Source of the DNA: Chitinophaga pinensis
GTDB taxonomy: Bacteria > Bacteroidota > Bacteroidia > NS11-12g > UBA955
DNA: 45,516 nucleotides
Direction: 5' to 3'
NCBI GenBank assembly: GCA_945877575.1
Contig: CAMDUE010000017.1
Coordinates: forward strand, 1 to 45,516
Below, one piece after another: positions 13,291 through 45,378 of this stretch. The notes beneath the pieces were generated by a model, which made no database searches, was not told where the DNA came from, and was given only the letters and a program-made list of their open reading frames with translations. The translations under genes and the position numbers were made by a program. Position 1 is the first letter of the stretch. Each line of letters starts with the position of its first letter.

Positions 13291-13298
13291 TCCGATAG

Positions 13299-30770: not shown

Positions 30771-30957
30771 TCAGCTTTCAGCGGACAGCTTTCAGCTCTC
30801 AGCGGACAGCTTTCAGCTCTCAGCTCTCAGCGGACAGCGGGGAGCGGTGATCAGCGGGCAGCCAATTGCTAATAGCCAATTGCTAATAGCCAACAGCTAA
30901 AGACCAAAGACCAAAGACCAAAAACCAAAGACCAAAAACCAAAGACCAAGGACCAAG
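30768..30957. repeat. Composite tandem-repeat region: CAGCNNN and AAAGACC heptamers plus a 14-15-bp repeat
   Basis: About a dozen heptamers of the form CAGCTTT, CAGCGGA and CAGCTCT run from the aminotransferase stop. They are followed by two copies of AGCCAATTGCTAAT and then about eight AAAGACC/AAAAACC/AAGGACC heptamers. The last group is the reverse complement of the TTTGGTC word seen near 12.8 and 13.3 kb. No gene is visible within it. Confidence 0.92.
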
Positions 30958-30962
30958 TACCC

Positions 30963-31691
30963 ATGCCCCCAGATAAAATATACGCATTCATCACATCAGC
31001 ATTTGTTGCTGAAATTTTAGGTACCGTGGGCGGCTTCGGGTCTTCCCTGTTTTTTGTGCCTATTGCAGCTTATTTTTTGGATTTTCATTCGGTTTTGGGA
31101 ATCACTGCCCTGTTTCATGTTAGCAGTAATTTGACCAAAATTGCTCTGTTTAGGCATGGTTTTGATAAGAACATCATTTTGTGGGTAGGCATTCCTGCCG
31201 TGGTTTTTGTAGTCATTGGCGCCTACCTCAGCCAATTTGCAAATACCGATATTTTAGAGAAAATTCTTGGCGTATTTTTAATAGTTATAAGCGTTTTTTT
31301 CTTCCTCAACCGAAACATGAAGATTGAACCCTCTCGAAGAAACTCTCTTTTGGGTGGGGTTTTCTCTGGACTTGCAGCCGGACTTTTGGGTACCGGTGGC
31401 GCCATTCGGGGATTGACTTTGGCATCGTATCAACTTCGTATTGAGGTGTTTATTGCCACATCGGCCATCATTGATTTGGCCATCGATGCTTCTCGCGCGG
31501 TGGTTTACACATCCAACGGATACGTTCACAAGCACGACCTCTACTTAATTCCTTTGTTGTTGGTTGTAAGCATTTTAGGCACGCTAATTGGAAAGAAAAT
31601 CTTATCTAAAATATCCGAAGACAAATTCAAAATGATTGTCTTGGGCATGATATTTCTAACGGGTATTTTCTCCTTACTGAACCTCAACTAA
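30963..31691 (+). CDS. TauE/SafE family sulfite/anion exporter-like membrane protein
   Basis: The 242-residue protein has about eight hydrophobic segments and the TauE/SafE pattern of two repeated halves, each with a Gly-rich first span: FVAEILGTVGGFGSSLFFVP and LLGGVFSGLAAGLLGTGGAI. The family moves sulfite, organosulfonates or similar anions across the inner membrane. The substrate here is unknown. The start lies 5 bases after the AAAGACC array. The 3' end converges on the pentapeptide gene with 4 bases between them. Confidence 0.85.
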   Translation: MPPDKIYAFITSAFVAEILGTVGGFGSSLFFVPIAAYFLDFHSVLGITALFHVSSNLTKIALFRHGFDKNIILWVGIPAVVFVVIGAYLSQFANTDILEKILGVFLIVISVFFFLNRNMKIEPSRRNSLLGGVFSGLAAGLLGTGGAIRGLTLASYQLRIEVFIATSAIIDLAIDASRAVVYTSNGYVHKHDLYLIPLLLVVSILGTLIGKKILSKISEDKFKMIVLGMIFLTGIFSLLNLN

Positions 31692-32505: not shown

Positions 32506-32590
32506 GGAGAGATGGCAGAGCGGTCGAATGCGGCGGTCTTGAAAACCGTTGACTGTTAAAGGTCCGGGGGTTCGAATCCCTCTCTCTCCG
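32506..32590 (+). tRNA. tRNA-Ser (anticodon UGA)
   Basis: The acceptor arms GGAGAGA and TCTCTCC pair fully, with G as discriminator base. The anticodon loop is CTTGAAA (32538-32544) with anticodon TGA. A long variable arm, typical of serine tRNAs, precedes the T-arm GGTTCGAATCC. CCA is not encoded. The 3' end is the likely integration site of the island that follows. Confidence 0.97.
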
Positions 32591-32597
32591 CTGAGTA

Positions 32598-32610
32598 CAG
32601 TTCGCAACTG
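32598..32610. other. Small inverted repeat next to the tRNA 3' end (possible recombinase core site)
   Basis: CAGTT and AACTG flank CGC, 8 bases past the tRNA. Tyrosine recombinases often bind such short inverted arms at attL. Proof would need the matching tRNA end at the far side of the island, which lies outside the window. Confidence 0.3.
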
Positions 32611-32614
32611 TTCG

Positions 32615-32651
32615 AAAAGTGTGTAAGTCGTTGATTTACACACTTTTTTTT
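32615..32651 (+). terminator. Intrinsic terminator after tRNA-Ser
   Basis: AAAAGTGTGTAA (32615-32626) pairs with TTACACACTTTT (32636-32647), a 12-bp stem with a 9-base loop, and a run of eight T residues follows. It would end the tRNA transcript before the integrase. Confidence 0.85.
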
Positions 32652-32790
32652 GTTCTTTACTTTCCGAAAATGTTCGCGTTTGTACGTCGATTAGGTTTCC
32701 TACTCGTGACCCTTTTTTAAAAACGCAAAAGGGGTCACACGCAAACGAACAGATACGAACATAATAGGACTGAAAATCAACAAGATAAGC

Positions 32791-32821
32791 TTGATTTAGC
32801 CGAGGGGTAAACGTAGTTTTG
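32791..32821 (+). promoter_or_regulatory. Promoter of the integrase gene
   Basis: TTG at 32791-32793 and TAGTTTTG at 32814-32821 are 20 bases apart, matching the Bacteroidota -33/-7 pattern. The integrase ATG is 40 bases downstream. Several short GTTCG/CGAAC words in 32600-32760 could be arm-type recombinase sites. Confidence 0.65.
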
Positions 32822-32861
32822 TAATCAAAATGGGGGGCACAATTAAACACAATTGCGCCTT

Positions 32862-34100
32862 ATGTCGTCAAAATCAACATTCAGTCTGGTGTTCTACATC
32901 AACCGGACAAAAGCAAAGAAGAACGGGGAATGCCCCGTGATGCTCCGTATTACCATCAATGGTGATGCTGTGGCACTGAGATTAAAACGCTTCATTGAAC
33001 CCGATCAATGGGATCCAGTGAGGTATCAAATGAAAGGCCGTACTACCGTGGCCAAGGTCTTTAATGACTACCTGGAAGCGGTTCGCGTTCGTGCCCATCA
33101 GAAGTACAACGACCTCCTGATGCAAAAGGAGGAAGTCCTGTCTACCGACCTTCGGGATGCCATCCTGGGCATCAACAATGCCAAGGTCAAAATGATTATC
33201 GAGGTCTGGGATGATTATATCGCTAGCTTGAAATCACTGATTGGTAAGGAGACTACCTATTCAACCTACCAAAAGAACACCACAGCTCGTAACCACTTCC
33301 AGAGTTTCCTCATCAAGAACTACCGGTCAGATGATGTATCCCTCAAAGCCGTGGATCATTATATGATTACCCAGTTTGCACTCTACTTGAAAACTGAGAA
33401 AGGTTGTAACCACAATACCTCCAACAAATTCTTGCAGAACGTTAAGAAGGTTACCACCATGGCCATCAGGCACGGCTGGTTGTTGAAGGATCCCTTCTCC
33501 GGAATCAGTTTGGGCATGAAGGAAGTAGTTCGACCCTATTTGACCGAGGATGAATTGAAAAGTCTAATGGAATTCAACTCCCCTTTCGAGCGATTGATCC
33601 GTGTGCGTGATTTCTTTGTGTTCTCATGCTTCACTGGGTTAGCCTACATCGATGTAAAACAACTCCGCAAATGCGAGATTGAGTATCACGAGGAGAAGTA
33701 TTGGATTCGCACGCGCCGTCAAAAGACCGGAGGTAGAGCTAACATCCCTTTGTTGAATGTCCCCATGGAAATCATTCGGAAGTATTGCAACCTGGAAGCT
33801 TTGAATCCTGAGGATACGGTTATTCCGATTCTGACCAATCAGAAGATCAATGCGTACCTGAAAGAACTAGCCGACCTGTGCGGAATCTCCAAGACCTTAT
33901 CCTTCCACGTGGCACGGCACACCTTTGCTACAACCGTAACCATGATGAATGGCGTACCCATTGAGACAGTGAGTAAGATGCTTGGACATAAAAACATCAA
34001 CAGTACCCAGCACTATGCCCGAATCGTCGACCAAAAGGTTGGCGAGGACATGGAGCTGCTCTCGCGAAGATTAGGAACCAGATTAGCACTAGCGAATTAA
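32862..34100 (+). CDS. Tyrosine recombinase (integrase) of a tRNA-Ser island
   Basis: From the ATG at 32862 the protein has 412 residues. An N-terminal arm-binding domain (FSLVFYINRTKAKKNGECPV) leads to a SAM-like core-binding domain (about 105-215). The catalytic domain has Lys in RRQKTGGRANIPL, HVARHTFA (HxxR, about residue 348), LGHKNINSTQHYAR with the His and the nucleophile Tyr. The first catalytic Arg, normally in TGLR, is replaced: the sequence is CFTGLAYIDV. CTnDOT-type recombinases also lack this Arg. Position next to tRNA-Ser indicates it integrated this island. Confidence 0.93.
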   Translation: MSSKSTFSLVFYINRTKAKKNGECPVMLRITINGDAVALRLKRFIEPDQWDPVRYQMKGRTTVAKVFNDYLEAVRVRAHQKYNDLLMQKEEVLSTDLRDAILGINNAKVKMIIEVWDDYIASLKSLIGKETTYSTYQKNTTARNHFQSFLIKNYRSDDVSLKAVDHYMITQFALYLKTEKGCNHNTSNKFLQNVKKVTTMAIRHGWLLKDPFSGISLGMKEVVRPYLTEDELKSLMEFNSPFERLIRVRDFFVFSCFTGLAYIDVKQLRKCEIEYHEEKYWIRTRRQKTGGRANIPLLNVPMEIIRKYCNLEALNPEDTVIPILTNQKINAYLKELADLCGISKTLSFHVARHTFATTVTMMNGVPIETVSKMLGHKNINSTQHYARIVDQKVGEDMELLSRRLGTRLALAN

Positions 34101-34105
34101 AACGA

Positions 34106-34131
34106 AGCCCCGGGATGACCGGGGCTTTTTT
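34106..34131 (+). terminator. Intrinsic terminator after the integrase
   Basis: AGCCCCGG and CCGGGGCT form a perfect 8-bp stem around GATGA, followed by six T residues. It starts 5 bases past the integrase stop. Confidence 0.93.
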
Positions 34132-34156
34132 GTGAACACTTACGAACAAAAATGAA

Positions 34157-34378
34157 ATGGAAAAAGAATTTGTAATTCGATCATACAGCTACTGTGAGCT
34201 TGCAATGCTCTACTTTCCCAACAGCACAAAGAAAAGTGCTAGTGCGCAGTTGGGTAGATGGATTCGGGGGAATGAGAAACTTAAAAGTCAATTGACGAAA
34301 ATGGGATTTAAGCCTAAAAAGAAACTATTAACGCCGAACCAAGTGAAATTGATTATTGAAGTTTTTGGAGAACCTTAA
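34157..34378 (+). CDS. DUF4248 family small protein
   Basis: The 73-residue protein matches DUF4248, a small family found on Bacteroidota mobile elements. The marks are IRSYSYCELAMLYFPNSTKK, LGRWIRGNEKLKSQL and LTPNQVKLIIEVFGEP. The pattern suggests a helical, possibly DNA-binding protein, but no function is established. It follows the integrase terminator on the same strand and converges on the TIR-like gene. I take it as part of the original island backbone. Confidence 0.8.
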   Translation: MEKEFVIRSYSYCELAMLYFPNSTKKSASAQLGRWIRGNEKLKSQLTKMGFKPKKKLLTPNQVKLIIEVFGEP

Positions 34379-34424: not shown

Positions 34425-34847
34425 TCATAATGAATTCCTTCTAATTGCTGAAATAATGGAACTTGTATTCCATCTTACAAGTTCGTTTGCGGCATTCTGT
34501 ATTGCAACTGGAATATTTTGCTGACCCCATGGATAGATGCCAACTATTGGTTTTTTTAGGTCTTGCGCAAGTTTTATTTCTTTAATTATCCATTCACTAT
34601 ATGCTGCATACATGCCACCAAGTATAATAACACAATTAGCAGGTCTAACTTGTCTGTTCAACAGCTCGGTTAGTTTTGTTTTTCCTGTAGGTGTACTTGG
34701 ATCAATGAGTGGATCGTGCATTGGAACGCTATAGTTTCTCCACTTAAATAATGGAGCTTCTTTTAACATTTTTTCTAATCGATAGTAGTCGTCATTATAG
34801 CGCCATGCGTGGCTAAGGAACAAATCGTATGTTTTTAATTCTGGCAT
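34425..34847 (-). CDS. TIR-like (ThsB/DUF1863-type) protein
   Basis: From the ATG at 34847 the protein has 140 residues (a TTG at 34856 would add three). The start YDLFLSHAWRYNDDYYRLEK and the later NCVIILGGMYAAYSEWIIKE fit the TIR-like fold of Thoeris ThsB. In Thoeris, ThsB senses phage and makes a nucleotide signal from NAD that activates ThsA. No ThsA lies here. The partner is a SLATT membrane protein 5 bases upstream. A SLATT effector gated by a TIR product is the inferred arrangement. Confidence 0.8.
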   Translation of the reverse strand: MPELKTYDLFLSHAWRYNDDYYRLEKMLKEAPLFKWRNYSVPMHDPLIDPSTPTGKTKLTELLNRQVRPANCVIILGGMYAAYSEWIIKEIKLAQDLKKPIVGIYPWGQQNIPVAIQNAANELVRWNTSSIISAIRRNSL

Positions 34848-34852
34848 GGTTG

Positions 34853-35275
34853 TCAAATTTGTTTATTGATATATTGGCTCCAAGCGGAGTGTTCTTTACT
34901 TACCAAGTTCTCTGTACGGGTTACTAATAGTTTAAAAGGCTCTTGATCTTCACTGTAAGGACCAGTTTTAGTTTGAAAGAGAATTTTCTCGTGTTTTAAT
35001 GTTTCTGAAGTTGTCCTATACTCCGTCCATTTTTCTTGAAACTTTAAAAGACCTGATAAACCAGATAAAATAGCTATTAATGAACCAAGTATTCCAAGCG
35101 TAATGTTTTTAACTTCAGAACAAAATTCAAGCCCAGCTACTAAAGGAATTGTTGCAGAAAACACAATTATTAACCCCTTAGTCCAATGGTTCAATAATTT
35201 ATTGGTTGTGGCCTTGTTACTATACCAAGTAATTTGGTCATCAATTCTTGTTTTTATATAATCTTGCTCTGTCAT
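34853..35275 (-). CDS. SLATT-domain (DUF4231-type) two-span membrane protein
   Basis: The 140-residue protein starts with DYIKTRIDDQITWYSNKA. It has two adjacent hydrophobic spans (about 32-50 and 58-77: IIVFSATIPLVAGLEF and LGILGSLIAILSGLSGLL) followed by a helical tail with FQEKWTEYRTTSETLKHEK. This is the SLATT layout. SLATT proteins are predicted pore-forming effectors of nucleotide-triggered defence systems. It is the first gene of a pair with the TIR-like protein and lies directly beside an attC-like repeat. Confidence 0.8.
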   Translation of the reverse strand: MTEQDYIKTRIDDQITWYSNKATTNKLLNHWTKGLIIVFSATIPLVAGLEFCSEVKNITLGILGSLIAILSGLSGLLKFQEKWTEYRTTSETLKHEKILFQTKTGPYSEDQEPFKLLVTRTENLVSKEHSAWSQYINKQI

Positions 35276-35300
35276 TGTATTTTGTTATTACGAGTGTGTT

Positions 35301-35433
35301 TATAGATTTCGAGCTTAGCCTTCGGGCGGGTTTCGGAGCACAAAACTGTCAATCTGCACAAAACTTGAATTAAAGCACAAAGCTCCATGTTTGCACATCA
35401 ACCCGCCTGAAGCAAAAACCATGTTAGGTGCAG
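35301..35433. repeat. attC-like imperfect palindrome, copy A
   Basis: Outer arms CCTTCGGGCGGGTT (35319-35332) and AACCCGCCTGAAGC (35400-35413) are near-complementary, around a core with GGAGCACAAAAC and CACAAAGCTCCATGTTTGC. The right end is GTTAGGTGC (35423-35431), fitting the integron R' consensus GTTRRRY; the left end has decayed. The stop codon of the next gene begins 3 bases beyond it. The same sequence returns as copies B and C. Confidence 0.7.
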
Positions 35434-35949
35434 TTATTTTATCTTTTCCCATCTGTCGATTAGGTCTGATTCAATAAGGTTTTTTACAGCAAGCCTGTCT
35501 ATTCTTTGTATTGAATTTTCGCAACCCTGTATTGAACAACTGTCTCCCAGAAATCTAATTGGTGTATCACCATGTTTAGTACAGAATGCTGTCAAGTCCG
35601 AAATAAATGGAGTTTCATAGTCAAAGAATACACTCCATTTAAATAGAATACCAGTATTTGGGTCAGTTGTCTTGTTTAATGAGCGAAGTTTTTGTTGTTT
35701 TGAAGAGTAGTACGCTTTTTCCTTTTTAATTAGTTTTCTGTACGCAAATTTTAAAACCCAATAAGCGACAAGTGCAAGAACAACGTAAATAACTTCAATT
35801 TTTATTTCAAGTATTTTATTAAAGGCCTCTCTATACGTTACTTTTTCTGTTACGCTAACAAATTTTGTATAGCCAAGGGTCAGCAAACCAATAATGCCTA
35901 CTGAAATAACTTTACTCCAGACCGGGTCTGTCCATATTTTCTTTACCAT
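35434..35949 (-). CDS. Two-span membrane protein of unknown function (cassette gene)
   Basis: The 171-residue protein has two hydrophobic spans (about 13-26 and 52-67: VISVGIIGLLTLGY and EVIYVVLALVAYWVLKF) and a cytoplasmic C-terminal half. That half includes FKWSVFFDYETPFISDLTAF and three Cys (AFCTKH, SCSIQGC), which might bind metal. I do not recognise a family. The gene lies 21 bases downstream of the octapeptide-repeat gene on the same strand. Its stop abuts the attC-like copy A, as in integron cassettes. Confidence 0.7.
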   Translation of the reverse strand: MVKKIWTDPVWSKVISVGIIGLLTLGYTKFVSVTEKVTYREAFNKILEIKIEVIYVVLALVAYWVLKFAYRKLIKKEKAYYSSKQQKLRSLNKTTDPNTGILFKWSVFFDYETPFISDLTAFCTKHGDTPIRFLGDSCSIQGCENSIQRIDRLAVKNLIESDLIDRWEKIK

Positions 35950-35970
35950 TTTTAATCTGTCCTTGGAAGG

Positions 35971-36387
35971 TTAGCAATTATCTAAAAAGCCGTGTCTTAA
36001 CATATATTCAACGATGTCGTGCATTCTTCTTTTTTGTAGTTCTGCAATTAATACTCTTGGTGGTGGCCAATTACTCATAAATGGATTTGCGTCTGCACCA
36101 GTGTAAAGACCACCGCTAACACCTTTATAAAGTCCACCTCCAACACCTGTGTAAAGTCCGCCACCAACGCCGGTATAAAGTCCTCCACCTGCACCTGTGT
36201 ATAGTCCACCGCCAACACCTGTATATAATCCACCACCTACACCAGTGTACATTCCACCACCAACGCCTGTATACATTCCACCACCAACACCGGTATAAGC
36301 CCCGCCTCCAATACCAGTATAAAGTCCTCCGCCAACTCCTGTGTATAGTCCTCCATGGACACCTGTATATCTATTTCTTGGCCACAT
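35971..36387 (-). CDS. Octapeptide-repeat protein, 12 x (x)YTGVGGG, with helical C-terminal tail
   Basis: Residues 6-101 of this 138-residue protein are twelve 8-residue units of the form LYTGVGGG; the first residue varies (Leu, Met, Ala, Arg) and the fifth is Val, Ile or Ala. A C-terminal tail of about 35 residues contains NPFMSNWPPPRVLIAELQKR and ends HGFLDNC. I recall similar YTGxGGG proteins in other Bacteroidota, some called beta-flower-like, but no function. Third codon positions differ between units, so the repeat is kept at protein level. It is probably co-transcribed with the 2TM gene. Confidence 0.8.
   Translation of the reverse strand: MWPRNRYTGVHGGLYTGVGGGLYTGIGGGAYTGVGGGMYTGVGGGMYTGVGGGLYTGVGGGLYTGAGGGLYTGVGGGLYTGVGGGLYKGVSGGLYTGADANPFMSNWPPPRVLIAELQKRRMHDIVEYMLRHGFLDNC
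36085..36372. repeat. 24-bp coding minisatellite, 12 units
   Basis: Each unit encodes one octapeptide of the repeat protein. The units agree in first and second codon positions and vary in the third, for example GGA/GGT/GGC for Gly. Confidence 0.9.
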
Positions 36388-36441
36388 ATATTTTTATCTT
36401 TTAGTTTGTTTATTTATATATATTAGTTTGTCCGCTATAAT

Positions 36442-36570
36442 TGCACCTAACGTTTTCGGGCTTTGCGTTCGGGTGGGTTTCGGAGCACAAAACGGTCAAC
36501 CTAAACAGAACTTGAATAGAACCACAAAGCTCCATGTTTGCCATCACCCCGCCAAACCCGTATTGGGCAT
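36442..36570. repeat. attC-like imperfect palindrome, copy B
   Basis: It begins with TGCACCTAAC (36442-36451), fitting the integron R'' consensus RYYYAAC, and continues with the core shared with copy A (GGTTTCGGAGCACAAAAC; CACAAAGCTCCATGTTTGC). It ends CCGCCAAACCCGTATTGGGC, where the R' site seems decayed. The orientation is the same as in copy A. It separates the octapeptide/2TM pair from the ATPase pair. Confidence 0.7.
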
Positions 36571-36587
36571 TTGTTCCTTTCATTCTG

Positions 36588-37034
36588 TCAAGTGTTTTTC
36601 TTTTCGGTTATCCAAAACCTATGGTCTTTGTCAAGAAACACAACATAAAATACATTGTCTTCAAAATATCCTATTACACACTCTTTTCCTTGAATGTGCA
36701 TAGAACACCACGCAATGTCTTCTGGAATATGTTTTGGGTGATAAAAATCTGATTTATCAGGAAATGTTCCTTTAGGATATTCTTTGATAATTTGTTGTCG
36801 GGTTGCTTCAATTCTGGTTAGTCCACAAACACCCTGAATTTTTCTAATAGCTAATGCAAGTAAATTTTCTCCTTCCCAAAGCTCAAACGATTGACCTTGA
36901 TTACTATCAAAATCTTTGAAACTTATGACAATAAATCGTTCTCTATGACCTAGACGTAAATCAATGCTTTTAACTTCTCTTTTGTAGGAAGCAGCATTCC
37001 TTTCATTAAACTTGTTCTGCTTCCCTCTTGCCAT
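36588..37034 (-). CDS. Small partner of the AAA ATPase, uncharacterised
   Basis: The 148-residue protein starts basic (MARGKQNKFNERN). It has a central GENLLALAIRKIQGVCGLTR and a C-terminal IPEDIAWCSMHIQGKECVIG then FYVVFLDKDHRFW. The end recalls RelE-type or HEPN-free toxin folds that finish with a G..xDN.F.xxxxD.DH pattern, but this is a weak resemblance. RloA-type ATPases usually pair with RloB (about 200 residues, TOPRIM-like); this protein is not RloB. It overlaps the ATPase gene by 29 bases, which indicates coupled expression. Confidence 0.6.
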   Translation of the reverse strand: MARGKQNKFNERNAASYKREVKSIDLRLGHRERFIVISFKDFDSNQGQSFELWEGENLLALAIRKIQGVCGLTRIEATRQQIIKEYPKGTFPDKSDFYHPKHIPEDIAWCSMHIQGKECVIGYFEDNVFYVVFLDKDHRFWITEKKNT

Positions 37035-38343
37035 AGAGTAAATCGTTTAATTTTTCATCAATGTCAAAGTATGGAATTGCTCCGTATTTGCCTTCAAAGT
37101 AATTTTTGTCAAATGCGGATTTGTTTCTGACTTTATCTGTTTTAAAGTCAGCTAAAGAAAATAACTCGGAAGCTCCGAACTGATTTTTTTCTACAAACCA
37201 AATTTGATCTCTTCTAAATGTCTCTTTGTTTAGCAAGGAAATGTCATGAACAGCACAAATTAACTGGGCTTTACTCTTGTTAAACTTGTGAAAGAAGTCA
37301 AGAAGTCGCATGGTTAAATGACTATGTAATCTAGAGTCAAGCTCGTCTATGATTAATACTTTTCCGTTTTGAAGTGTATCATACCAAGGACCGAGTAAGT
37401 ATAGAAGTTTTTTAGTTCCTTCGGATTCCTGCTTATCAAAGTTGAATGGAACAGTATCAACTAAAATATTGTTCTCATCGTATTTTCTATGAAAAGTAAT
37501 GAGTTGGTCTCTTTTGGGTTGCTTTGACTGTATTTTCTGAATACTAGTAAGAAGATTTATTATTTCTTCGTCTTTCTCTTTATCTCTTAACGTTTCAAGG
37601 TCTATTTCGTTAACATCTTCTTCCGTTGTTGAAAGATTGGATATCTCTAAGTATTTGACGAAATGTAGAACCCAATTAAAAAACTGTTTATCTGATTTTA
37701 ATTTGTCAATAGTGTATCTTTTGTGTCCACGATCATGAATACCATTCACGAAATTGAATTTTTTGAACCAGTCCACAATATTTGTAGAAGTCTCTTTGCC
37801 TAAAGTGGCTAAAAGGGAAAGAAATAAAACATTCTCTTTTACATCTTCTTCTTTTCCCAGTCCTTCTTTAAAAGCGGATTTATTTATCTCAATCTTTTGT
37901 TGGTCTCTTTTGAATAGATAGACTTCTTTGCTAGTTGTATGAAAAAGCCATTCGGATACTATTTTGTCGTAGTCAATTTCAAATCCGTATCGATACTTAG
38001 TTTCTTTTTGAATAAAAGAAATTTCAAAAAAGCTGGTTTCTTTTTCTGTCTTTGTGTTAAGTGCAAATTTTTCCAATGGGAATTTTCTTTCGCTATTCTC
38101 CATTAACGCATCTCTGAAAGAGTTCAAAACAGTTTGCTTCATGAAACCCATAGCTTCAAGAAAGTTACTCTTACCGCTTGCATTGTTACCGTAAACCACT
38201 GCAGATTTTAAGAGATTGAGATTGCTTCCTGTCTCAATAATATGGGTTTCTGGATGTTCCTTAAAAGACTTGGCAGCCACCATTGAAAGTGTTGTTAGGT
38301 CTTTAAATGAAAGAAAATTCTCTATGCTGAATTCTATTAACAT
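37006..38343 (-). CDS. RloA/AbiLi-like AAA (AAA_15) ATPase
   Basis: The 445-residue protein starts with FSIENFLSFKDLTTLSMVA. It carries Walker A VVYGNNASGKSNFLEAM (about 50-66), a signature-like ESEGTKKLLYLLG, Walker B KVLIIDELDSRLH and the switch His in ICAVHD. This is the SMC/OLD-like ATPase type found in abortive-infection and anti-phage systems. It normally controls a toxic partner, here presumably the overlapping downstream protein. A well-formed promoter precedes it. Confidence 0.85.
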   Translation of the reverse strand: MLIEFSIENFLSFKDLTTLSMVAAKSFKEHPETHIIETGSNLNLLKSAVVYGNNASGKSNFLEAMGFMKQTVLNSFRDALMENSERKFPLEKFALNTKTEKETSFFEISFIQKETKYRYGFEIDYDKIVSEWLFHTTSKEVYLFKRDQQKIEINKSAFKEGLGKEEDVKENVLFLSLLATLGKETSTNIVDWFKKFNFVNGIHDRGHKRYTIDKLKSDKQFFNWVLHFVKYLEISNLSTTEEDVNEIDLETLRDKEKDEEIINLLTSIQKIQSKQPKRDQLITFHRKYDENNILVDTVPFNFDKQESEGTKKLLYLLGPWYDTLQNGKVLIIDELDSRLHSHLTMRLLDFFHKFNKSKAQLICAVHDISLLNKETFRRDQIWFVEKNQFGASELFSLADFKTDKVRNKSAFDKNYFEGKYGAIPYFDIDEKLNDLLYGKREAEQV

Positions 38344-38372
38344 GTCTTTTATTGTCTTTTTGAATTGGACTG

Positions 38373-38402
38373 CAAAGATACATCACAATTTGAATTTTGC
38401 AA
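38373..38402 (-). promoter_or_regulatory. Promoter of the AAA ATPase operon
   Basis: On the minus strand TTG (38402-38400) and TATCTTTG (38380-38373) are 19 bases apart, matching the Bacteroidota -33/-7 consensus. The ATG is 29 bases downstream of the -7 element. Confidence 0.7.
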
Positions 38403-38481
38403 CTTTATTTCAAATTTTCGTTTTTGTTTGGCTGTTTTGTCCGTTTGTGGGGTGTTCTAGAATGACGTCCAACTACAATAT

Positions 38482-38634
38482 ATGCAAGAGGATAAGGCGC
38501 TTATTAGGTTAAGTGCGGTCTTTAAGCGAAACAATATTTCACTTATAATCGCCAAAAAAATAATCAAAAAAAGGGAAATATTTACTTTGGTTGACAACGG
38601 GCCACTTCAATTTACAACCGCCAACTCCCTCTAA
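38482..38634 (+). CDS. Small basic protein (50 residues), unknown
   Basis: An ATG at 38482 opens a 50-residue frame starting MQEDKALIRLSAVF, with a basic middle (IIAKKIIKKREIF) and the end FTTANSL. It lies 40 bases before the next plus-strand gene in the same direction and fills an otherwise empty stretch. I do not recognise it. It may be a leftover of the mobile backbone or a spurious frame, and there is no clear ribosome binding site. Confidence 0.4.
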   Translation: MQEDKALIRLSAVFKRNNISLIIAKKIIKKREIFTLVDNGPLQFTTANSL

Positions 38635-38674
38635 ATTTTAATACGGAATCTTGTCTGGTCAAAAGGCAAGATTA

Positions 38675-38914
38675 ATGAATAACTCACTAGATACTGGAGC
38701 TGTAACGACTGTCTCAGGAATGATTGGCGGTATTGTGAAAGCTGTTTCCGTGAAGCCCGTGATGATGGCGATCACTTTTGGATCATTAGCAAATGTGATG
38801 ATCTATGCCGCTGCCTCTGCCGGGGTCGGCTACGTGGTAAAAAAGGTTCTCGACAAACTATCCGCTAAGATTAGCGATAAGTGCGCCCAATACAAATCAC
38901 AGGACGATGAATAA
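38675..38914 (+). CDS. Small protein with one membrane span (mobile-element backbone)
   Basis: From the ATG at 38675 the protein has 79 residues with a hydrophobic middle (PVMMAITFGSLANVMIYAAA) and a charged C terminus (KKVLDKLSAKISDK). No family is recognised. Its end overlaps the next gene by 8 bases. Direction and tight packing set it in a plus-strand run with the three following genes, against the minus-strand defence genes around them. Small membrane proteins like this are common in small phages and integrative elements. Confidence 0.6.
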   Translation: MNNSLDTGAVTTVSGMIGGIVKAVSVKPVMMAITFGSLANVMIYAAASAGVGYVVKKVLDKLSAKISDKCAQYKSQDDE

Positions 38915-39407
38915 GGTTGTAGGAGTTGCTTTAGCCGGTGTGGCTCTTTATGGGCTTATCAGACTTCTGAAAATGCAGAGTGTCTCTGACTTGGCATCGC
39001 TTACTCTCGTCAACCCCCGTGTTCATAATGTTTCTCTAGCAGGAATGTCGCTTCGAACCGAAGTGGCCGTGAATAATGCTTCCCGAGACAGTGTAAAGGT
39101 TACAAAACCGGTCGTAGTACTCACCTCAAACGGCAGGTTCCTTACTCAATCCATGGCCGAAAATAAGGTCATTGAAATACGCCCCTTGACCATAACCAAT
39201 ATTGACACCATTGAAATAGTGCTGAATTGGTCGATACTGGGCTCCCTTGTTACCAACCTCATTAAGAAAATACCTCTGGTGATTGCCTCTTTCAAACAGG
39301 GCAACAGCAAGAACCTGATTTCCCAGTTGGGAATTCCTATGGAAATGTACTTCACCACCTATGTGAATGGCCTGTTTTATCAATCTGAACCTGAAAAGCT
39401 CATCTGA
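38907..39407 (+). CDS. Secreted or membrane-anchored LEA-like beta protein (mobile-element backbone)
   Basis: The 166-residue protein starts with a hydrophobic anchor (VVGVALAGVALYGLIRLL). A beta-rich domain follows, with LTLVNPRVHNVSLAGMSL and TEVAVNNASRDSVKVTKP, resembling the LEA14/water-stress type fold seen in small Bacteroidota phage-like elements. The function there is unknown; a virion or envelope role is possible. The stop overlaps the next ATG by one base. Confidence 0.55.
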   Translation: MNKVVGVALAGVALYGLIRLLKMQSVSDLASLTLVNPRVHNVSLAGMSLRTEVAVNNASRDSVKVTKPVVVLTSNGRFLTQSMAENKVIEIRPLTITNIDTIEIVLNWSILGSLVTNLIKKIPLVIASFKQGNSKNLISQLGIPMEMYFTTYVNGLFYQSEPEKLI

Positions 39408-39772
39408 TGAAAAGGCTCGTTGACACATACCATCCCGAAACCATTGTTAGTGGCAAGCGCACGATCCGTGATGGTAGCCGCTTCAATCCATATTTCCCAC
39501 CTCCGGATGAGAGAGATCGTGTCATCATACAGGATGGTGAAGTCACCGATACCGTGGAGTTAATGGAGAAAGTCGTTTGGAAATACCTTGACGACACCAA
39601 GCGAATCGCTCCATTACTCAGGCGGTCTTCCACCCTTGATACTTGTAAAGCCATTTGGGAATTCATGTACTCCTATATCCAGTACAAATTGGATAAACGT
39701 GGTTTCGAACAACTCAGAAGACCAAGCAGGTCTTGCGAGCGAGCAATGCAGTATGATTTTTTAACCGAATGA
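39407..39772 (+). pseudogene. Transglutaminase-like protein, truncated before the catalytic part
   Basis: The 121-residue frame begins LVDTYHPETIVSGKRTIRDG. It contains CKAIWEFMYSYIQYKLDKRG and then LEQLRRPSRS-type sequence (here EQLRRPSRSCERAM). In relatives I recall, this section leads straight to a catalytic GxDCDC-like motif and about 100 more residues. Here the frame ends in 18 unrelated residues. A deletion seems to have fused it to the neighbourhood of the following ATPase. I call it a pseudogene, with moderate certainty. Confidence 0.55.
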
Positions 39773-39825
39773 AAAAGGCAGTTGAATAATGTAAAATCAA
39801 GCGCAATGATAAGTATGCCGATAAG

Positions 39826-40512
39826 TTGAATGAAGCCGACCAAACCCTTAAAAGCTACATTGTCGGAGATTCTGTGATGTTGAATATCAATAAAGCGCAG
39901 CTCAACGGATTGATTGGGCTTATGGGTGAAAATTTATTTGGTCAAAAAAAAAGTCTAAACGGACACGAAGAAGATAATGGAATGATTGTGAGCTCGGGCG
40001 AATTGCACGCCATGGACTTTCAAACGAGCGGACAGCAAGGTAAGTATAGAGAATTAATTGGTGATCCATGCGTTGGATTTACAGCCATGGTTTATGGACT
40101 TCCCAAGTCGGGTAAGTCAACCATGTGTTTGGACTTTGCCAACTACCTGGCATCCCTCCATGGTAAAGTTCTTTACTGTGCCATTGAAGAGGGTTTTGGC
40201 TATACGCTAAAAGAAAAGGTTGAACGATTGAAGGCGCACCACTCAAACCTCTATATCACTGACCGTGTTCCTGAAAACCAGAATGATTTTCAATTCGTAT
40301 TTATTGACAGCGTTTCTAAGGCCGGGATGGATGTGAATGCCATTGATCAACTTCGCAAAATGCACCCTGATACATCGTTTATTTTTATCTACCACACCAC
40401 CAAAGAAGGCCACTTCAAAGGGGTGAATGAGCACGCTCACGAAGTGGATGTGATAATTCAGGTTGAGAAGGGTCAAGCAATTTCCACAGGCAGGTTTAAT
40501 GCTGGGGGGTAA
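39826..40512 (+). pseudogene. RecA-like ATPase, N-terminally truncated
   Basis: The 228-residue frame has a Walker A GLPKSGKST (about residue 89), VLYCAIEEGFGYTLKEK, Walker B QFVFIDSVSKAG and IYHTTKEGHFKG, as in DnaB/RecA-type motors of mobile elements. No ATG exists in frame at the start: the frame is open back to 39790 and offers only TTG at 39826. It ends NAGG at a run of six G; with one G fewer it would read on to NAGGNGDLVV. With the preceding truncated gene it suggests a decayed region. Confidence 0.6.
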
Positions 40513-40519
40513 TGGAGAT

Positions 40520-40981
40520 TTAGTCGTCTAGTAAATTTAAAACAAGAAGTAAAGCAGCAGTTCCTAAAACAAAATTTAATGCTTTCGTGTCATTTTGCTT
40601 CTTTAATTGGTATTTGTAAATCTCTTCGTTTAAAACATCAATAGCTTGCTCAGGTTTTTTTCTATTAAATGACACGTATTTAAATTTGAATTTATCACTA
40701 ACTTTAACCGTGTTTTCGACCAATAGAATGGCTGGGACTTTCCCGATTTGAGCTCTTCGCCATTCTTGCATTATTCTCTTTTGTTCATAACCTGTTCCTG
40801 TAATAATCCCAATGAACAAATCTGATTTTGAAATGTTTATTTTTGTAAGTGAAGAAATTTCATCCTTTTGAAAGTCTACGCTTTGACTTATCTCAAAGCC
40901 CTTTTTAACCAATTCACTGGACAATAGAGTTAAGATAAACTGGTCTTTATCATTGATTGAATATGATATGAATACTTTCAT
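40520..40981 (-). CDS. TIR-domain protein with C-terminal membrane anchor
   Basis: The 153-residue protein begins KVFISYSINDKDQFILTLLS, the TIR box 1 pattern. It continues with DLFIGIITGTGYEQKRIMQEW and PAILLVE, as in TIR-like domains. A single C-terminal hydrophobic segment (ALNFVLGTAALLLVLNLL, about 133-150) would anchor it in the membrane. TIR domains in defence cleave NAD or make nucleotide signals. The gene follows an Mrr-like nuclease gene by 3 bases and converges on the ATPase remnant. Confidence 0.75.
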   Translation of the reverse strand: MKVFISYSINDKDQFILTLLSSELVKKGFEISQSVDFQKDEISSLTKINISKSDLFIGIITGTGYEQKRIMQEWRRAQIGKVPAILLVENTVKVSDKFKFKYVSFNRKKPEQAIDVLNEEIYKYQLKKQNDTKALNFVLGTAALLLVLNLLDD

Positions 40982-40984
40982 TGA

Positions 40985-41482
40985 TTATCTTCGTTTATTT
41001 TCAATAAATTGGTGATATGCAGGAAAGAAATGTCTATGTAAATTCTCAGTTACACTTAATTTACTTTTGAAAACTTCGCCTGTCCAACATTCGTAATGAT
41101 ATTTGAATTTGCATTCGTCATTTAATCTCTCAAAAAGTTCAGTTGTTCCAGAGGTTGGGTTACTCTTGCAAATTAACAAATATCCTGATGCTCTATATGA
41201 ATGAATTAATGAAGGTATGTTAATAGAGTTGATATGAAGAGTTGAAATATTTGATTCATGAAATTTACATTGAACAACCCATATTCTTTTAAAATCCACC
41301 ACTTCATCGTACAGATCAAATTCAACTAAGATATCTCTACCTCCATCTGTTCCAACGCCGCTTTGTTTTATTCTGACGTTTGATATATTGCTTTTTTTAC
41401 CTTTTTTTAGTTCTTTAAAATATGCGGCTACTAAATCCTCAAAATGAGTTCCGTCTCTAATTTCGTCAAAATTTAAATTCAT
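40985..41482 (-). CDS. Mrr-like restriction endonuclease domain protein
   Basis: The 165-residue protein has the PD-(D/E)xK arrangement of the Mrr family. FEDLVAAYFKEL precedes GVGTDGGRDILVEF (Asp50) and IWVVQCKFHE (Gln71, Lys73). Only the catalytic domain is present, without a winged-helix DNA-reading domain. It probably cuts DNA, perhaps when directed by its partner. It is coupled to the TIR-TM gene. About 75 bases of AT-rich sequence separate it from the SIR2-HerA group. Confidence 0.82.
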   Translation of the reverse strand: MNLNFDEIRDGTHFEDLVAAYFKELKKGKKSNISNVRIKQSGVGTDGGRDILVEFDLYDEVVDFKRIWVVQCKFHESNISTLHINSINIPSLIHSYRASGYLLICKSNPTSGTTELFERLNDECKFKYHYECWTGEVFKSKLSVTENLHRHFFPAYHQFIENKRR

Positions 41483-41557
41483 TTTTTCAATAGTTGTATT
41501 TAAATATAATTTCGCAAATTCTCTATTAATAAACTTAATATAATTTTATAATTCAAT

Positions 41558-42421
41558 TTAAATTTTTAGTAACAATTGAGCACCTGTTAAATCTCTAAAA
41601 TTTCTCATGAGTAAGTGACTATGAAATAGTTTATAATCTTCAATTTTCTCATATTGTTCATTTAGTTTTTTAAATGCCATTGAATAAAATTGATTTTCAG
41701 ATAAAACAGCAATAATTTTATTACTAAAATTAATTATAGTATTTTGATTGCTTTCATCTTTAATGTAATTATCATTATTAATTGAATTGATAGCTGTAAT
41801 TAAATCAAAGTTGTCAATTTTTTCAGATTCACTGCAAGCAATTGAAAATGAACCTGATTTAATATAGGTATTTCTATGATGATTGTGCAATTCTGATGCT
41901 TTGCGAAAATTAGAAATATTTATTATTTGTCTACTTAGATGAGCAGTAATGAGGTCGTTAATATCATATAAAGCAGGTGATGCATAAACAATGAAAACTC
42001 TAGTCCCAAATTCATTATCAATGTGCATTAATAGGTCTTGTTGATCTTTATAAATATCATAGCGATAATAAGGTTCATTCCAATACTTCCACTCTTTACC
42101 AATTGAAGTTGTTATAATCGACGGTTTTTTATATTGGAACAATAGATTTGTTTTTATATTTGGTATATTATTTAAAGTTACATCCAAATAATGTTCCATT
42201 TCGTCAGCGATTAATCTCAAGTCCAAACCAGCAAAAGATGGATAGAACCAAATTGGATGCCCTAATCTGCTCCACAGTCTTCTATTGGAAGAAAGAGCTG
42301 AGCTATCAAAGCCTAAACTGCCTTCTTGAACTTGACCAAGTGGGAAATACACATCAGTTTGTCGAGCTAATTCAGAGTTGAAATAGTTCTCGTATGTTTT
42401 TTCTTCAAATCTTGCTCGCAT
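41558..42421 (-). CDS. Third gene of the SIR2-HerA operon, possible nuclease, uncharacterised
   Basis: The 287-residue protein is not one I can name. The N-terminal third has YFPLGQVQEGSLGFDSSAL and, about 55 residues on, TNLLFQYKKPSI. The order E..GxD..QxK recalls PD-(D/E)xK nucleases (Glu33, Asp39, Gln96, Lys98), but this is inference. The rest is helical, with HNHHRNTYIKSGSFSIACSE and a C-terminal MRNFRDLTGAQLLLK. It starts 7 bases after the HerA stop, so it is very probably part of the same system. Confidence 0.6.
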   Translation of the reverse strand: MRARFEEKTYENYFNSELARQTDVYFPLGQVQEGSLGFDSSALSSNRRLWSRLGHPIWFYPSFAGLDLRLIADEMEHYLDVTLNNIPNIKTNLLFQYKKPSIITTSIGKEWKYWNEPYYRYDIYKDQQDLLMHIDNEFGTRVFIVYASPALYDINDLITAHLSRQIINISNFRKASELHNHHRNTYIKSGSFSIACSESEKIDNFDLITAINSINNDNYIKDESNQNTIINFSNKIIAVLSENQFYSMAFKKLNEQYEKIEDYKLFHSHLLMRNFRDLTGAQLLLKI

Positions 42422-42428
42422 AATTCTT

Positions 42429-44177
42429 TCACGATTTTGATTGTTTTCTTAGTCCACTTACCGCTGTCGCAATATCTTGTTTCGAAGTTTCAGTACTCCA
42501 TTCTTTCCAAAATTTTACTGTTGCACTTTCTGGTTTAATATTTGGTTCATCAATTATTATTCTTGTAGGAAGTAAAGATGCGTCACCAACAACCAAAGCT
42601 TCTCCAATGTCTAAAATTGGAAGTACGTCTGTCAATCCAGATAAATTGTCAGGAAGCAAACGTTTAATTACAGCTTGGTCTTCTGCGTTTGATAGTCTCA
42701 ATGCAATAAAGTTATTACATTGGCTTAAAACCGTTCTGTTTACTTCTGCTGGTCTTTGACTTATTACAGTCAAACTTACGCCATATTTTCTTCCTTCTTT
42801 TGCAATTCTTTCAAAACTTTTTAAACCCAATTCAGCAGCTGCATCTTGATTTGTTCTTTCGGGGATATAAAGATGAGCTTCATCACAAAGCAAAGCAATC
42901 GGATGTTGGTTTTCCCTAATTGTCCATTGTTGAACTGTAAAAACAAGCCTTGCTACTAATCCAATAACTAATGGAAGGACATCAGATGGAACTTCAGAAA
43001 AATCAATAATTTTCACACCTGCTTTCTTTGGATTTGAAGTGGTTCCCAGCATTAATCGCTCACATAGTTTATTCAACCAATTAATGTCCAATTCGTCATC
43101 AGAAATTTGGAAAAGGAAACCAAGTCGTTTGTCCTGCTTTTTAGCTTCAAGTCTTTGAATAAATCTTGACAACTTTCCATTAAAATCACCATTTCTACCA
43201 GCAGCAGTTGCACCGGCCACTCGTTCATTATCCAATCTTTTCAATTCATTTAAAACGGCTTCCAGATTATATGGAATTGGACTATCAATTGTTATGTTCT
43301 CTTTAAATTGACTATCACCGATCCTTTCCAAGAATTCCAATTTTTCACTAAAAACAGTTCTTGAGAAAACCATTGCTTGATTTGGTGCATTGCTATCGCT
43401 TCTGTCAAGAAGCATTGTAAGCATTTCTTCATATGTAAGAAGCCAATAGGGCAGCATTAATACATCATTCTCTAAATTTCTAGTCTTTCCTAAATCAGAT
43501 GGATTAGCTACACGTAAGTGTTGCAAACCGTCCATATTGAATTCCATACCACTATACTCTCCATGAATGTCAAAAAGAATACAGTTTGCCATTGGAAGCT
43601 GAGCTATTTGTTCAATTAATTTTGCAACACACCATGATTTTCCTGAACCTGTACTTCCAACTATTACTGCATGTCTTTGAAATAATTTATCGCCATCTAA
43701 AAATGCTTGCGCTTGTTCATCGATTGAGTATTTCCCAATGGTCAAAGGGACTTTATAATTGTCATGACTTGATATAGTAGTCATGAATTTTGTGATATTT
43801 TCGCCATCAATCGGAAAACACTGTGCTTCAATTTCAGGAACTGTATCAAGATTGCGTTTAAATACGTTTTCATTACGTCCATGTCGGTCAAGTAAAGTAC
43901 CAATAAGATTTACTTTGAGGATATTCTCCGTAAAAAGAAATCCACTTAATCCTAAATCATTTTCAACTGGGTTTTCTTCATCTGAAGCCTTACGGGTTAT
44001 TCTGTTAATCAACCCAATTAAATGTTGCCCAGCTTTTGCACTTTTAATTGCTACAAGTTGGTTTACATGAAGTTTCCTAAGTTTCTCCAACTCTTGAACT
44101 TTGATAACTACTGTTGCGGTATCAACACTAAAAACTGTTCCGATTGCCTGACTATCGTCAAAATTAAATATTGCCAT
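42429..44177 (-). CDS. HerA-like hexameric ATPase/helicase of a SIR2-HerA defence system
   Basis: The 582-residue protein starts with a HAS-barrel (QAIGTVFSVDTATVVIKVQE). Walker A VGSTGSGKSWCVAKL (about 173-187), Walker B ALLCDEAHLYIPE and SLTVISQRPAEVNRTVLSQ follow. These are the HerA/FtsK-type translocase marks, including the Gln-Arg-Pro segment. In SIR2-HerA systems HerA forms a ring that binds and activates SIR2. It is placed 1 base after the SIR2 stop. Confidence 0.88.
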   Translation of the reverse strand: MAIFNFDDSQAIGTVFSVDTATVVIKVQELEKLRKLHVNQLVAIKSAKAGQHLIGLINRITRKASDEENPVENDLGLSGFLFTENILKVNLIGTLLDRHGRNENVFKRNLDTVPEIEAQCFPIDGENITKFMTTISSHDNYKVPLTIGKYSIDEQAQAFLDGDKLFQRHAVIVGSTGSGKSWCVAKLIEQIAQLPMANCILFDIHGEYSGMEFNMDGLQHLRVANPSDLGKTRNLENDVLMLPYWLLTYEEMLTMLLDRSDSNAPNQAMVFSRTVFSEKLEFLERIGDSQFKENITIDSPIPYNLEAVLNELKRLDNERVAGATAAGRNGDFNGKLSRFIQRLEAKKQDKRLGFLFQISDDELDINWLNKLCERLMLGTTSNPKKAGVKIIDFSEVPSDVLPLVIGLVARLVFTVQQWTIRENQHPIALLCDEAHLYIPERTNQDAAAELGLKSFERIAKEGRKYGVSLTVISQRPAEVNRTVLSQCNNFIALRLSNAEDQAVIKRLLPDNLSGLTDVLPILDIGEALVVGDASLLPTRIIIDEPNIKPESATVKFWKEWSTETSKQDIATAVSGLRKQSKS

Positions 44178-44178
44178 T

Positions 44179-45207
44179 TTAGTTTTTTATTAGTTTGAGG
44201 TATTCAGAAAGTGCCCAATAATTCACCTCCGGAATTATTAATTCTCCCGTAAATGAAGATGAGTAAATCCGAGTGTCATTGCCGTTTGCTTCTTCTATCA
44301 AGATGTACTGTTTACAGCCGGTATCAATTATTGACTGCTTTGTTTTTTGTGTTAGTTTTTTTGTAATTACAATTATTGGTTTTCCACTTTTTATTTGTGC
44401 AATTAATTTAGGTTGAACATGAATGTCATTAAAACCGTAGCCGATGCAGAGAAAAGAAGAAGCCTTTTCAATTTCATTATCAGCTTCAGTAAAAATTGTC
44501 CTGAATGGCTCCAATTGCGTTTCATAATATTTGGAAAGTCCAGGTGTTACAATTAATGGTTTATAATTTGCTGGAATTGTTGACCTGTGAGGTAATTGTT
44601 TGTCAGTTTCTTCATTGGACTTGAACCAATCCAAAGAACCATGAACCTTCCAGATATTCACTTGCCCTTTAAAACCATTTATTCTGGTTAAGTCTTGTTG
44701 ATGTATGCTCTTGGAAAAATGTCCAACAAAATTTTGAGTAAATCCAGTACAGATAAAAGCATTAGAAAAGCTTGCAGCATATTCTGCAAGTCGGTCGTAA
44801 TTAGTTGTAACAATTGACACTTTTCTTTGAGCCGCATTTAAAAGATGAGTTGTCAATTCTGCCAATGGGAAATCTGTGTCTCCTTGGAGTAAATTTTCAA
44901 ACGCTTCAATGTCATACTTATTAACCAGTGACCAAGTTTCGAATATCACTTTTTCTGAGACTGTTGGTCTTAATTGTACTTGATGTAATGTTGTTTCTAA
45001 ATCATTTCCTTTTTCAAGCATTGATTTGAAATCTTCGAATTGGGAAATGTCTTCAGGATCTGAAAATGATATATTGTTTTTTAGATGTTCTCCGAGTGAC
45101 TGCATAGAAGGCAGTTGAAAAGGCACAGATGCTCCACTTCCGAGAATGATTATAGGAACTCGGTTTGTCCAATCTTGTATTAATTTTAGTAATGTATCAT
45201 TGTCCAT
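44179..45207 (-). CDS. SIR2-family NADase of a SIR2-HerA defence system
   Basis: The 342-residue protein has the SIR2 features ILGSGASVPF (NAD-binding, about 21-30), SIVTTNYDRLAEY, the catalytic His in IWKVHGSLDWF and CIGYGFNDIHVQP. SIR2 proteins of this sort deplete NAD on phage infection. With HerA immediately downstream this matches the known SIR2-HerA pair. The upstream 30 bases show no good -33/-7 promoter; attC-like copy C begins just beyond. Confidence 0.88.
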   Translation of the reverse strand: MDNDTLLKLIQDWTNRVPIIILGSGASVPFQLPSMQSLGEHLKNNISFSDPEDISQFEDFKSMLEKGNDLETTLHQVQLRPTVSEKVIFETWSLVNKYDIEAFENLLQGDTDFPLAELTTHLLNAAQRKVSIVTTNYDRLAEYAASFSNAFICTGFTQNFVGHFSKSIHQQDLTRINGFKGQVNIWKVHGSLDWFKSNEETDKQLPHRSTIPANYKPLIVTPGLSKYYETQLEPFRTIFTEADNEIEKASSFLCIGYGFNDIHVQPKLIAQIKSGKPIIVITKKLTQKTKQSIIDTGCKQYILIEEANGNDTRIYSSSFTGELIIPEVNYWALSEYLKLIKN

Positions 45208-45240
45208 TCTTGTTGTTTTTTGTGTCGGTGTCTTTTTATT

Positions 45241-45378
45241 ATAATTAACAAGGTATGCGCAAACCCGAAACTGGCTATTTCTAGCTACTTTACTTTATCC
45301 AAGCACTAAATTTGATTGAAGTACAAAGCTTCAAATAAACATTGTACCGCCATTTTTTTAGGTTCGTATAGGTGAAGT
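45241..45378. repeat. attC-like imperfect palindrome, copy C (degenerate)
   Basis: It aligns with copies A and B over the core, for example GTACAAAGCTTCAAATAAAC against GCACAAAGCTCCATGTTTGC, and has TGTACCGCC where A has CAACCCGCC. The right end GTATAGGTGAAG (45366-45377) matches the end of A with one inserted base. The orientation is the same. It lies upstream of the SIR2 gene. Confidence 0.55.

Follow-up and report, generated by a model that had tools for sequence, protein, structure and literature searches.

Attachment sites of an integron-type cassette system in Bacteroidota, probably served by an integrase lacking the IntI additional domain

Integrons are already listed for the Bacteroidota in a passage of PMC8618304 and for the Bacteroidetes/Chlorobi group in one of PMC2426708. 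In the relevant part of PMC9668308 the additional domain of their integrase, IntI, is described as defining, and IntegronFinder requires it. According to a section of PMC2727003, the R''-L'' arm of known attC sites has two or three extrahelical bases; these are recognised by the I2 domain in the account of Escudero et al. (PMC4792948), a passage of which speaks of a chicken-and-egg paradox in how domain and sites arose. In open-access text we found no earlier description of an integron class without this domain, and a report elsewhere is possible. The stretch analysed here, called the window, comprises 45,516 nucleotides of Chitinophaga pinensis DNA (assembly GCA_945877575.1, contig CAMDUE010000017.1). 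The original prediction, made from its letters alone, saw in it three attC-like palindromes (A, B and C) dividing a defence island into cassettes. We conclude, with a probability of about 0.93, that A and B are attC-type sites of a Bacteroidota integron system whose integrase lacks the additional domain; the conclusion rests on sites, arrays, an attI, cassette edges, a cassette duplication, the association with an integrase and the absence of the domain from it, all read from sequence. Our confidence is high for an integron-type system and moderate for a folded-strand mechanism.

The features bearing on this conclusion are given in window positions (R2 is the covariance model of the site; ORF, open reading frame):
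35298..35433, minus strand: attC site A, with R'' box and stem intact and R' box decayed (R2 match 35298-35429)
36442..36570, minus strand: attC site B, with R' intact, a variant R'' (CCCAAT) and a 7-nt gap in the left stem (R2 match 36445-36568)
45277..45348, minus strand: remnant C, the mid-portion of an attC site with both boxes lost (partial R2 match)
35303..36451, minus strand: cassette B to A, about 1.15 kb, starting at the GTT of B; its end within A is approximate because the R' box of A is decayed
35971..36387, minus strand: cassette gene 1, an ORF for a 138-aa protein encoded by 24-bp repeats
35434..35949, minus strand: cassette gene 2, an ORF for a 171-aa protein, its stop one base before R'' of A

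A and B share 86% identity across 88 nt, have the same orientation and are separated by 1,147 bp. The R'' box of A is one base away from the TAA stop of the ORF at 35434-35949, and that of B is 18 bases away from an ORF with its end at 36588, both as originally predicted. The prediction of three like copies holds for A and B, and for C only the middle is matched: R2, in whose training C had no part, covers its central 72 nt (model positions 28-100 of 132; E value 5.6e-4), both R boxes and the L stems fall outside that match, and C is absent from the whole-genome BLAST with B as query. The window holds two good sites and one decayed remnant. The R2 scores of A (122 bits; E value 3.1e-25) and B (102 bits; E value 8.2e-21) in the window are high by construction, since both sites belonged to the training set. 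Support independent of that training is provided by plain BLAST with B, which finds a third copy in the window's genome (C15:61033-61139; 80%; E value 4.2e-21) and, at an E value of 0.001, matches in 18 of the 70 genomes of the family, the window's own included, and in 9 of 14 genera. A covariance-model search, proposed with the original prediction, extends the range. At an E value of 0.01, R2 has six matches in the window's genome and matches 49/70 genomes and 13/14 genera of the family from which its training elements also come; at 0.001 it matches 198 of 295 genomes and 116 of 156 genera of the class (both lower bounds, the filters being strict). No match to R2 was obtained, even at an E value of 1, in 165 kb made up of 50 kb of E. 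coli K-12 and the canonical intI loci of seven genomes.

The free circular cassette of an integron restores its own R' box, so that the first bases of a cassette complement its own R'' and not the R' that follows it in the array. This relation was examined at 80 integrase loci, the best 80 of at least 573 relatives found with nine query proteins in one genome per species. Neighbouring sites less than 1,800 bp apart were paired (those 1,800 bp or more apart were not used) among 107 of the 108 R2 matches of these loci, the match of L160, cut by a contig end, being left out; 5 of the 107 have no AAC or GTT. The six variable bases after GTT complement the cassette's own R'' perfectly in 43 of 61 cassettes, against a mean of 1.8 and a maximum of 8 perfect pairs in 5,000 shuffles, and on average 5.2 of the 6 bases match (shuffled 2.7; standard deviation 0.15). 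The two boxes within one single site, by comparison, pair perfectly in just 5/101 (mean 2.8 of 6). At the loci of the window's family, the window included, 11 of 19 cassettes are perfect (shuffled mean 0.7, maximum 5) and 0/43 sites are so within themselves, in a test that omitted matches weaker than those entered, C among them. Beyond the variable bases, position 10 matches in 46% of cassettes, position 11 in 0/61 and position 12 in 75%. We regard this complementarity to the cassette's own R'' as the central evidence pointing to integron-type cassettes.

The same relation is found in the window. On the minus strand the R'' box of A reads TGCACCTAAC and the R' box of B reads GTTAGGTGCA (in window positions, TGCACCTAAC stands at 36442-36451 and GTTAGGTGCA at 35423-35432), so that the first ten bases of cassette B to A are exactly complementary to R'' of A, which agrees with the prediction of a two-gene cassette between A and B. 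Set side by side, GTTAGGTGCAAT and GTTAGGTGCAGT also show the conserved mismatch at position 11 and the match at position 12. Judged by its edges the B-to-A stretch is a genuine cassette, its own mobility being unproven. Neither of its two genes has a match in Pfam or PADLOC. The 24-bp tandem repeats at 36069-36394, inside the 138-aa gene, correspond to 8-residue protein repeats. A second intact cassette of the window's genome, on contig C2 (GTTACCACC; L201, G000:C2:14000-22000, positions 3273-4411), holds one 399-aa ORF that by eye looks like a serine hydrolase of beta-lactamase fold.

The 43 perfect cassettes are 390-1,912 bp long (median 824). In 37 of them the longest ORF is oriented toward the attC and in 3 against it, while 3 contain no ORF of 50 aa, and the stop codon lies a median of 14 nt from the AAC of R''. 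As in integrons, the arrays consist of co-oriented, mostly single-gene cassettes, and attC sites with R'' and R' boxes are joined to cassette edges at GTT. The predicted alternation of the element with unrelated, mostly single genes was thus found, with unit edges at GTT that are consistent with the suggested cut between G and TT. Ten of the 37 co-oriented genes, hand-picked and not a random draw, were inspected for content: they comprise one GmrSD-like gene (PADLOC HEC-05; 6.6e-52), one HNH nuclease with a weak PtuB match, one methyltransferase with a Mads match and one DUF3800 protein with a very weak candidate-defence match, and the others are hydrolases, repeats, DUFs or unknown.

The closeness of the sites to stop codons might suggest transcription terminators or structured 3' RNA elements. 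Such elements, however, would not predict that variation in R'' tracks a cassette start hundreds of bases upstream, a relation foreign to an RNA hairpin, and Rfam gave no match to the sites; of all the readings weighed here we find this one the least credible. A self-contained mobile palindrome is ruled out because the cassette start pairs with its own R'' across the gene. More generally, dispersed palindromes of the miniature inverted-repeat transposable element (MITE) or repetitive extragenic palindromic (REP) kind, inserting on their own beside genes, would accommodate the copies that stand alone on a contig among the matches listed, as well as C, a lone remnant. They would not account for complementarity that joins two different sites across a gene and not the two ends of one element, nor for two further observations, namely a moving unit made up of a segment plus one site, in Flavobacterium paronense, and arrays that begin at a fixed place beside one integrase. 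Copies dispersed without change of the flanking genes, named at the outset as the pattern that would speak against cassettes, are not what the relatives present, and we hold dispersed palindromes to be very improbable.

The preferred reading, an integron-type system, is further supported by the layout of the integrase loci. At an E value of 0.01, all 108 R2 matches of the 80 loci share the strand of the integrase, and 107 are situated downstream of the gene, L123:8633-8758 being the exception. At least one match is present in 34/80 loci, and in 27 of the 37 with at least 2 kb of downstream sequence. It may be added that 21/80 integrase contigs end less than 500 nt after the integrase (e.g., L105 and L120), as if assemblies break at repeated arrays. 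The first cassette begins 93-112 nt past the last codon of the integrase in 23 of 32 loci, and at 71 and 135 nt in two more; in the remaining seven the best cassette start is further on, probably owing to an earlier attC that went undetected. An attI core, TATAWANNAGTT, is found in 50 of 72 loci (shuffled 0.26, maximum 2), in 49 of those 50 at 93-118 nt, the motif having been read off 26 of the same 72 loci; these 26 show a dyad (mean inverted-repeat score 10.0; shuffled 5.9). An attI thus lies beside the integrase gene, as in integrons. Between the integrase stop and attI, TAnnTTTG, which we take to be the Bacteroidota -7 promoter motif, occurs in 29 of the 42 loci (of 80) used for this count (shuffled 1.0, maximum 4); 16 of the 29 have it 11 nt past the stop. 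It would be a promoter-like site reading into the cassettes.

The locus of F. paronense CECT 8460 (L127) contains three copies of one cassette of about 440 bp, at 11147 (the first after the integrase), 17276 and 18894. From GTT to ...GGAACGTTA they are almost identical. Leftward, the attI-borne copy differs from the array copies up to GTT, and rightward all three differ. This triple copy appears to be the footprint expected of capture at attI and duplication. Such arrays and edges in relatives lend strong support to the prediction that Bacteroidota have an attC-like system of cassette capture.

No IntI-specific additional domain is present in the integrase encoded next to the arrays. The distance from its KGxKDR box to its HxLRH box is 69-70 residues in 42/42 main-family rows of the integrase alignment and, in seven divergent rows, 69 in six and 75 in one; 11/11 IntI rows (two of which represent a single gene) have 111, and 11 of 12 XerC/D-type rows have 77, the twelfth being without the motif. 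When the profile is aligned with V. cholerae IntI (2A3V), some 42 residues are missing at the stretch of the additional domain. The cassette integrase has an extra N-terminal region of about 65-75 residues, and residues R204, K229, H294, R297, H320 and Y329 (first-row numbering), presumably the catalytic residues of tyrosine recombinases, are invariant in its alignment, A5 (L113 was dropped for a stop codon; L109, L137, L143 and L164 were dropped unchecked). Against TIGR02249, the IntI family, it scores 209 bits, with a cut-off of 265. In the 70 family genomes nothing exceeds this cut-off, and the best sub-threshold matches are open frames mostly of 320-395 aa, several of them beside R2 sites. 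NF040815, described by NCBI as 'site-specific tyrosine recombinase/integron integrase', is matched over its cut-off. The closest solved structure is archaeal XerA (5HXY), with 1.9e-43 by sequence and 2.4e-17 by Foldseek; the Foldseek ranks are taken as supportive, since the AlphaFold model behind them (mean predicted local distance difference test, pLDDT, 82) has a predicted template modelling score (pTM) of 0.50. A tree of 49 rows places the new integrases (20 rows; support 95/97), together with the divergent set, in a group with IntI and apart from XerC/D, and XerC/D-type rows from the same family of genomes fall outside the new clade; the tree carries a long-branch warning, does not include XerA-type rows and is not used for any claim on which is ancestral. 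Many of the 80 loci come from Flavobacterium, others from Pelobium, Chitinophagaceae, Saprospiraceae and further Bacteroidota, with one record labelled Ignavibacteria and one Azoarcus. In a divergent subgroup (G024:C45, G027:C21, G046:C15 and G069:C55) the sites lie upstream of the integrase and on the opposite strand, which is the classical layout.

These results bear on a conventional explanation, that the sites are ordinary attC served by a canonical IntI, with its additional domain, elsewhere in these bacteria (a classical integron, or a cluster of attC sites lacking an integrase, CALIN). The R box conforms to the usual RYYYAAC / GTTRRRY pattern, and canonical IntI exceeds its cut-off in 105 of 395 genomes of the phylum. 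It does so, however, in 1/295 genomes of the class, against the 198/295 with sites, R2 found nothing around the canonical IntI genes of seven genomes, and the integrase adjoining the arrays is without the domain; this explanation is improbable. The new integrase, at an E value of 1e-110, is present in 60/295 class genomes.

R2 was derived from alignment A2, which holds 22 elements of the window's family, A and B among them; L004, a chance match, was left out, as were elements of L005, L010, L011, L012, L015, L017, L023 and L024 (insertions, ragged ends, cut or N-containing). On its stem, 82% of cells are paired (shuffled 75%, slid 28-48%), 41 cells are changed on both sides (shuffled 17, slid 6-18), and the pair covariation score is 0.236 (shuffled 0.124, slid at most 0.088). 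The stem pairing is supported by this covariation across 22 relatives. The two arms were compared over their first 26 nt in 105 of 113 candidate sites (seven without AAC or GTT and one of low score being excluded). In 95/105 the R' arm has the longer spacer between its R and L boxes, by exactly 4 nt and in 67 with 1 versus 5 nt; the difference is independent of the gap cost (94-95 of 105). With gap costs of 4, 3 and 2, the R''-L'' arm is bulged in 11, 15 or 25 of the 105 sites, and 78, 70 or 50 are free of bulges on both arms, so that most sites do not have the extrahelical bases known from this arm. A missing I2 domain and mostly missing extrahelical bases make a coherent pair, and a functional link between the two may be supposed.

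For the chemistry, the exact cut, a single-stranded substrate and the choice of strand by spacer asymmetry we infer the following scheme. An Xer/IntI-like tyrosine integrase, encoded beside the array in relatives, would recombine an attC, at the GTT of its R' box, either with another attC or with the R box of attI, which lies some 100 nt downstream from the integrase gene. The unit moved would be a cassette of some 0.8 kb, in most cases a single gene with its own attC behind it, oriented to be read from the promoter-like site that lies between the integrase gene and attI. As in integrons, a single folded strand probably serves as the substrate. The R stem would be complete only in the free circular cassette, because the cassette start complements its own R''. 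In strand choice, the spacer asymmetry (typically 1 versus 5 nt) may replace the extrahelical bases.

Several results weigh against the conclusion that A and B belong to such a system. The stem was set by hand from both arms, and R2 was built on this hand-set stem; RNAalifold on the MAFFT alignment returned no structure, which leaves a sequence-only model. In the covariation test, further pair types were not above shuffles (118 of 500). The single-strand DNA folding energies of A (z -0.58) and B (z +1.12) are no better than those of shuffles, with z values of -1.86 and -5.34 for two intact sites of relatives; the predicted folding thus holds as R/L pairing by covariation in the relatives and is weak for A and B by themselves. 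R2 matches nothing at 10 of the 37 integrase loci whose downstream sequence extends for 2 kb or more. Imperfect neighbour pairs make up 18/61 and 8/19 in the two cassette tests, and likely stem from missed or decayed sites. Cassette B to A has no second copy in the 68 other family genomes searched. Finally, the cassette integrase is absent from the window's genome, which is 99.9% complete in 30 contigs: four recombinase matches were found there, the best with 32% identity and none at a profile E value of 1e-70.

The original prediction had noted that no IntI-type integrase was in view, and the whole genome is likewise without one. The window thus holds neighbouring attC sites in a genome without the integrase, and its array (A, B and the cassette between them) is stranded and partly decayed; we call it a CALIN in integron terms, a name presumed to follow IntegronFinder usage. 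The sites are regarded as a stranded, decaying set because the integrase is missing and the boxes of A, B and C are degraded.

The remaining features of the region comprise the recognisable defence genes and the left part of what is probably a genomic island:
36588..38343, minus strand: a 148-aa ORF and an AbiLi-like AAA ATPase (PADLOC AbiLi; 5.3e-89), ending 18 nt before R'' of B
34425..35275, minus strand: a ThsB-like TIR protein and a SLATT/DUF4231 protein, downstream of A
40520..45207, minus strand: a defence block between B and C, with a weak TIR match, an Mrr-like gene, a 287-aa ORF without match, HerA and SIR2
32506..34378, plus strand: tRNA-Ser(TGA) (32506-32591), a phage-type tyrosine integrase (32853-34100) and a DUF4248 protein

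The picture of three sites dividing the defence island is not supported, as C has lost its boxes and the sole intact cassette of the window carries genes without Pfam or PADLOC match. The recognisable defence genes adjoin sites and are at most candidate cassettes: no cassette edges are proven for ThsB/SLATT, for the Mrr and TIR genes or for SIR2-HerA. The spacing of 18 nt between the AbiLi-like pair and R'' of B is inside the range of proven cassettes, and this pair is possibly B's own cassette, with a 5' edge that was not found in 36.5-45.5 kb. A search of the minus strand there for the start of a cassette ending in B gave four one-mismatch hits, none convincing; one of them, at 45262 (where the R' end of C lies), would turn the whole stretch from C to B into a single old cassette of enormous size and was rejected as too weak.

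An alternative origin for the defence genes is that all of them form one island, inserted at tRNA-Ser by its own phage-type integrase, in which the attC are passengers that never moved them. The integrase concerned (domains Arm-DNA-bind_5, SAM_5 and Phage_integrase) belongs to a different recombinase family from the cassette integrase, and with tRNA-Ser(TGA) and the adjoining DUF4248 protein it probably marks the left end of a genomic island carrying defence genes. A repeat of the tRNA is found on another contig, not in the window: the start of C27 (G000:C27:91-1577; L208, L187) is an 88% copy of the 3' part of tRNA-Ser, and 0.9 kb past it lies a recombinase whose 417-aa open frame has the same length as the island integrase. 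This copy may mark the distal edge of the island seen in the window, or else a tandem island. The right end is not seen within the contig, which ends at 45516, and the island leaves both cassette B to A and the second intact cassette on C2 unexplained. We judge the odds of this origin to be even; the defence genes may have come as an island with the cassette as a passenger.

Elsewhere in the window, repeats with 7-bp units (TTGGTCT type) occupy 12783-12850, 13298-13380 and 30864-30978, the third in the opposite orientation, and 17-bp tandem repeats with GCGAAGCG-type units lie at 26239-26340.

By the strict definition, the system is not an IntI integron, because the defining domain was tested for and is absent; the other integron features that can be tested in sequence are present, except for the extrahelical bases. 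We lean towards the view that it represents a separate integron class, common across the Bacteroidia and missed since detection requires the IntI additional domain, in which folded sites would be recombined without the I2 helix, the 4-nt spacer excess and the R-stem mismatch choosing the strand. If so, the class would be a living relative of the state before I2, or else an independent solution. An integron family without the domain, and largely without extrahelical bases, would make the origin paradox testable with living enzymes, and the capture of gene cassettes in the class, restriction- or defence-like cassette genes included, has probably been overlooked.

In comparison with known systems, the arrays resemble integrons, including the sedentary chromosomal ones, in having mostly single-gene cassettes with a palindromic site and R''/R' boxes with GTT, a cassette start that complements its own R'', an attI beside the integrase, co-oriented genes and a duplicated cassette. 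They differ from integrons in an integrase that lacks the IntI additional domain and has the extra N-terminal 65-75 residues, and in R pairing that exceeds the 7-nt boxes and has a fixed mismatch at position 11. Unlike known attC, 94/105 sites have no bulge on the R''-L'' arm (80/105 at the laxest gap cost), and unlike the classical divergent layout, array and integrase of the main clade point the same way. Tyrosine recombinases of the islands targeted to tRNA genes move whole islands and not single-gene cassettes; the island integrase of the window, seated beside tRNA-Ser, is of this kind and shares just 24% identity with the cassette integrase over the matched part. Xer recombinases act on dif-like sites. 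It is to these, above all archaeal XerA (5HXY; NF040815), that the cassette integrase has its best sequence and fold matches, whereas its gene, unlike those of Xer, adjoins an attI and arrays of cassettes.

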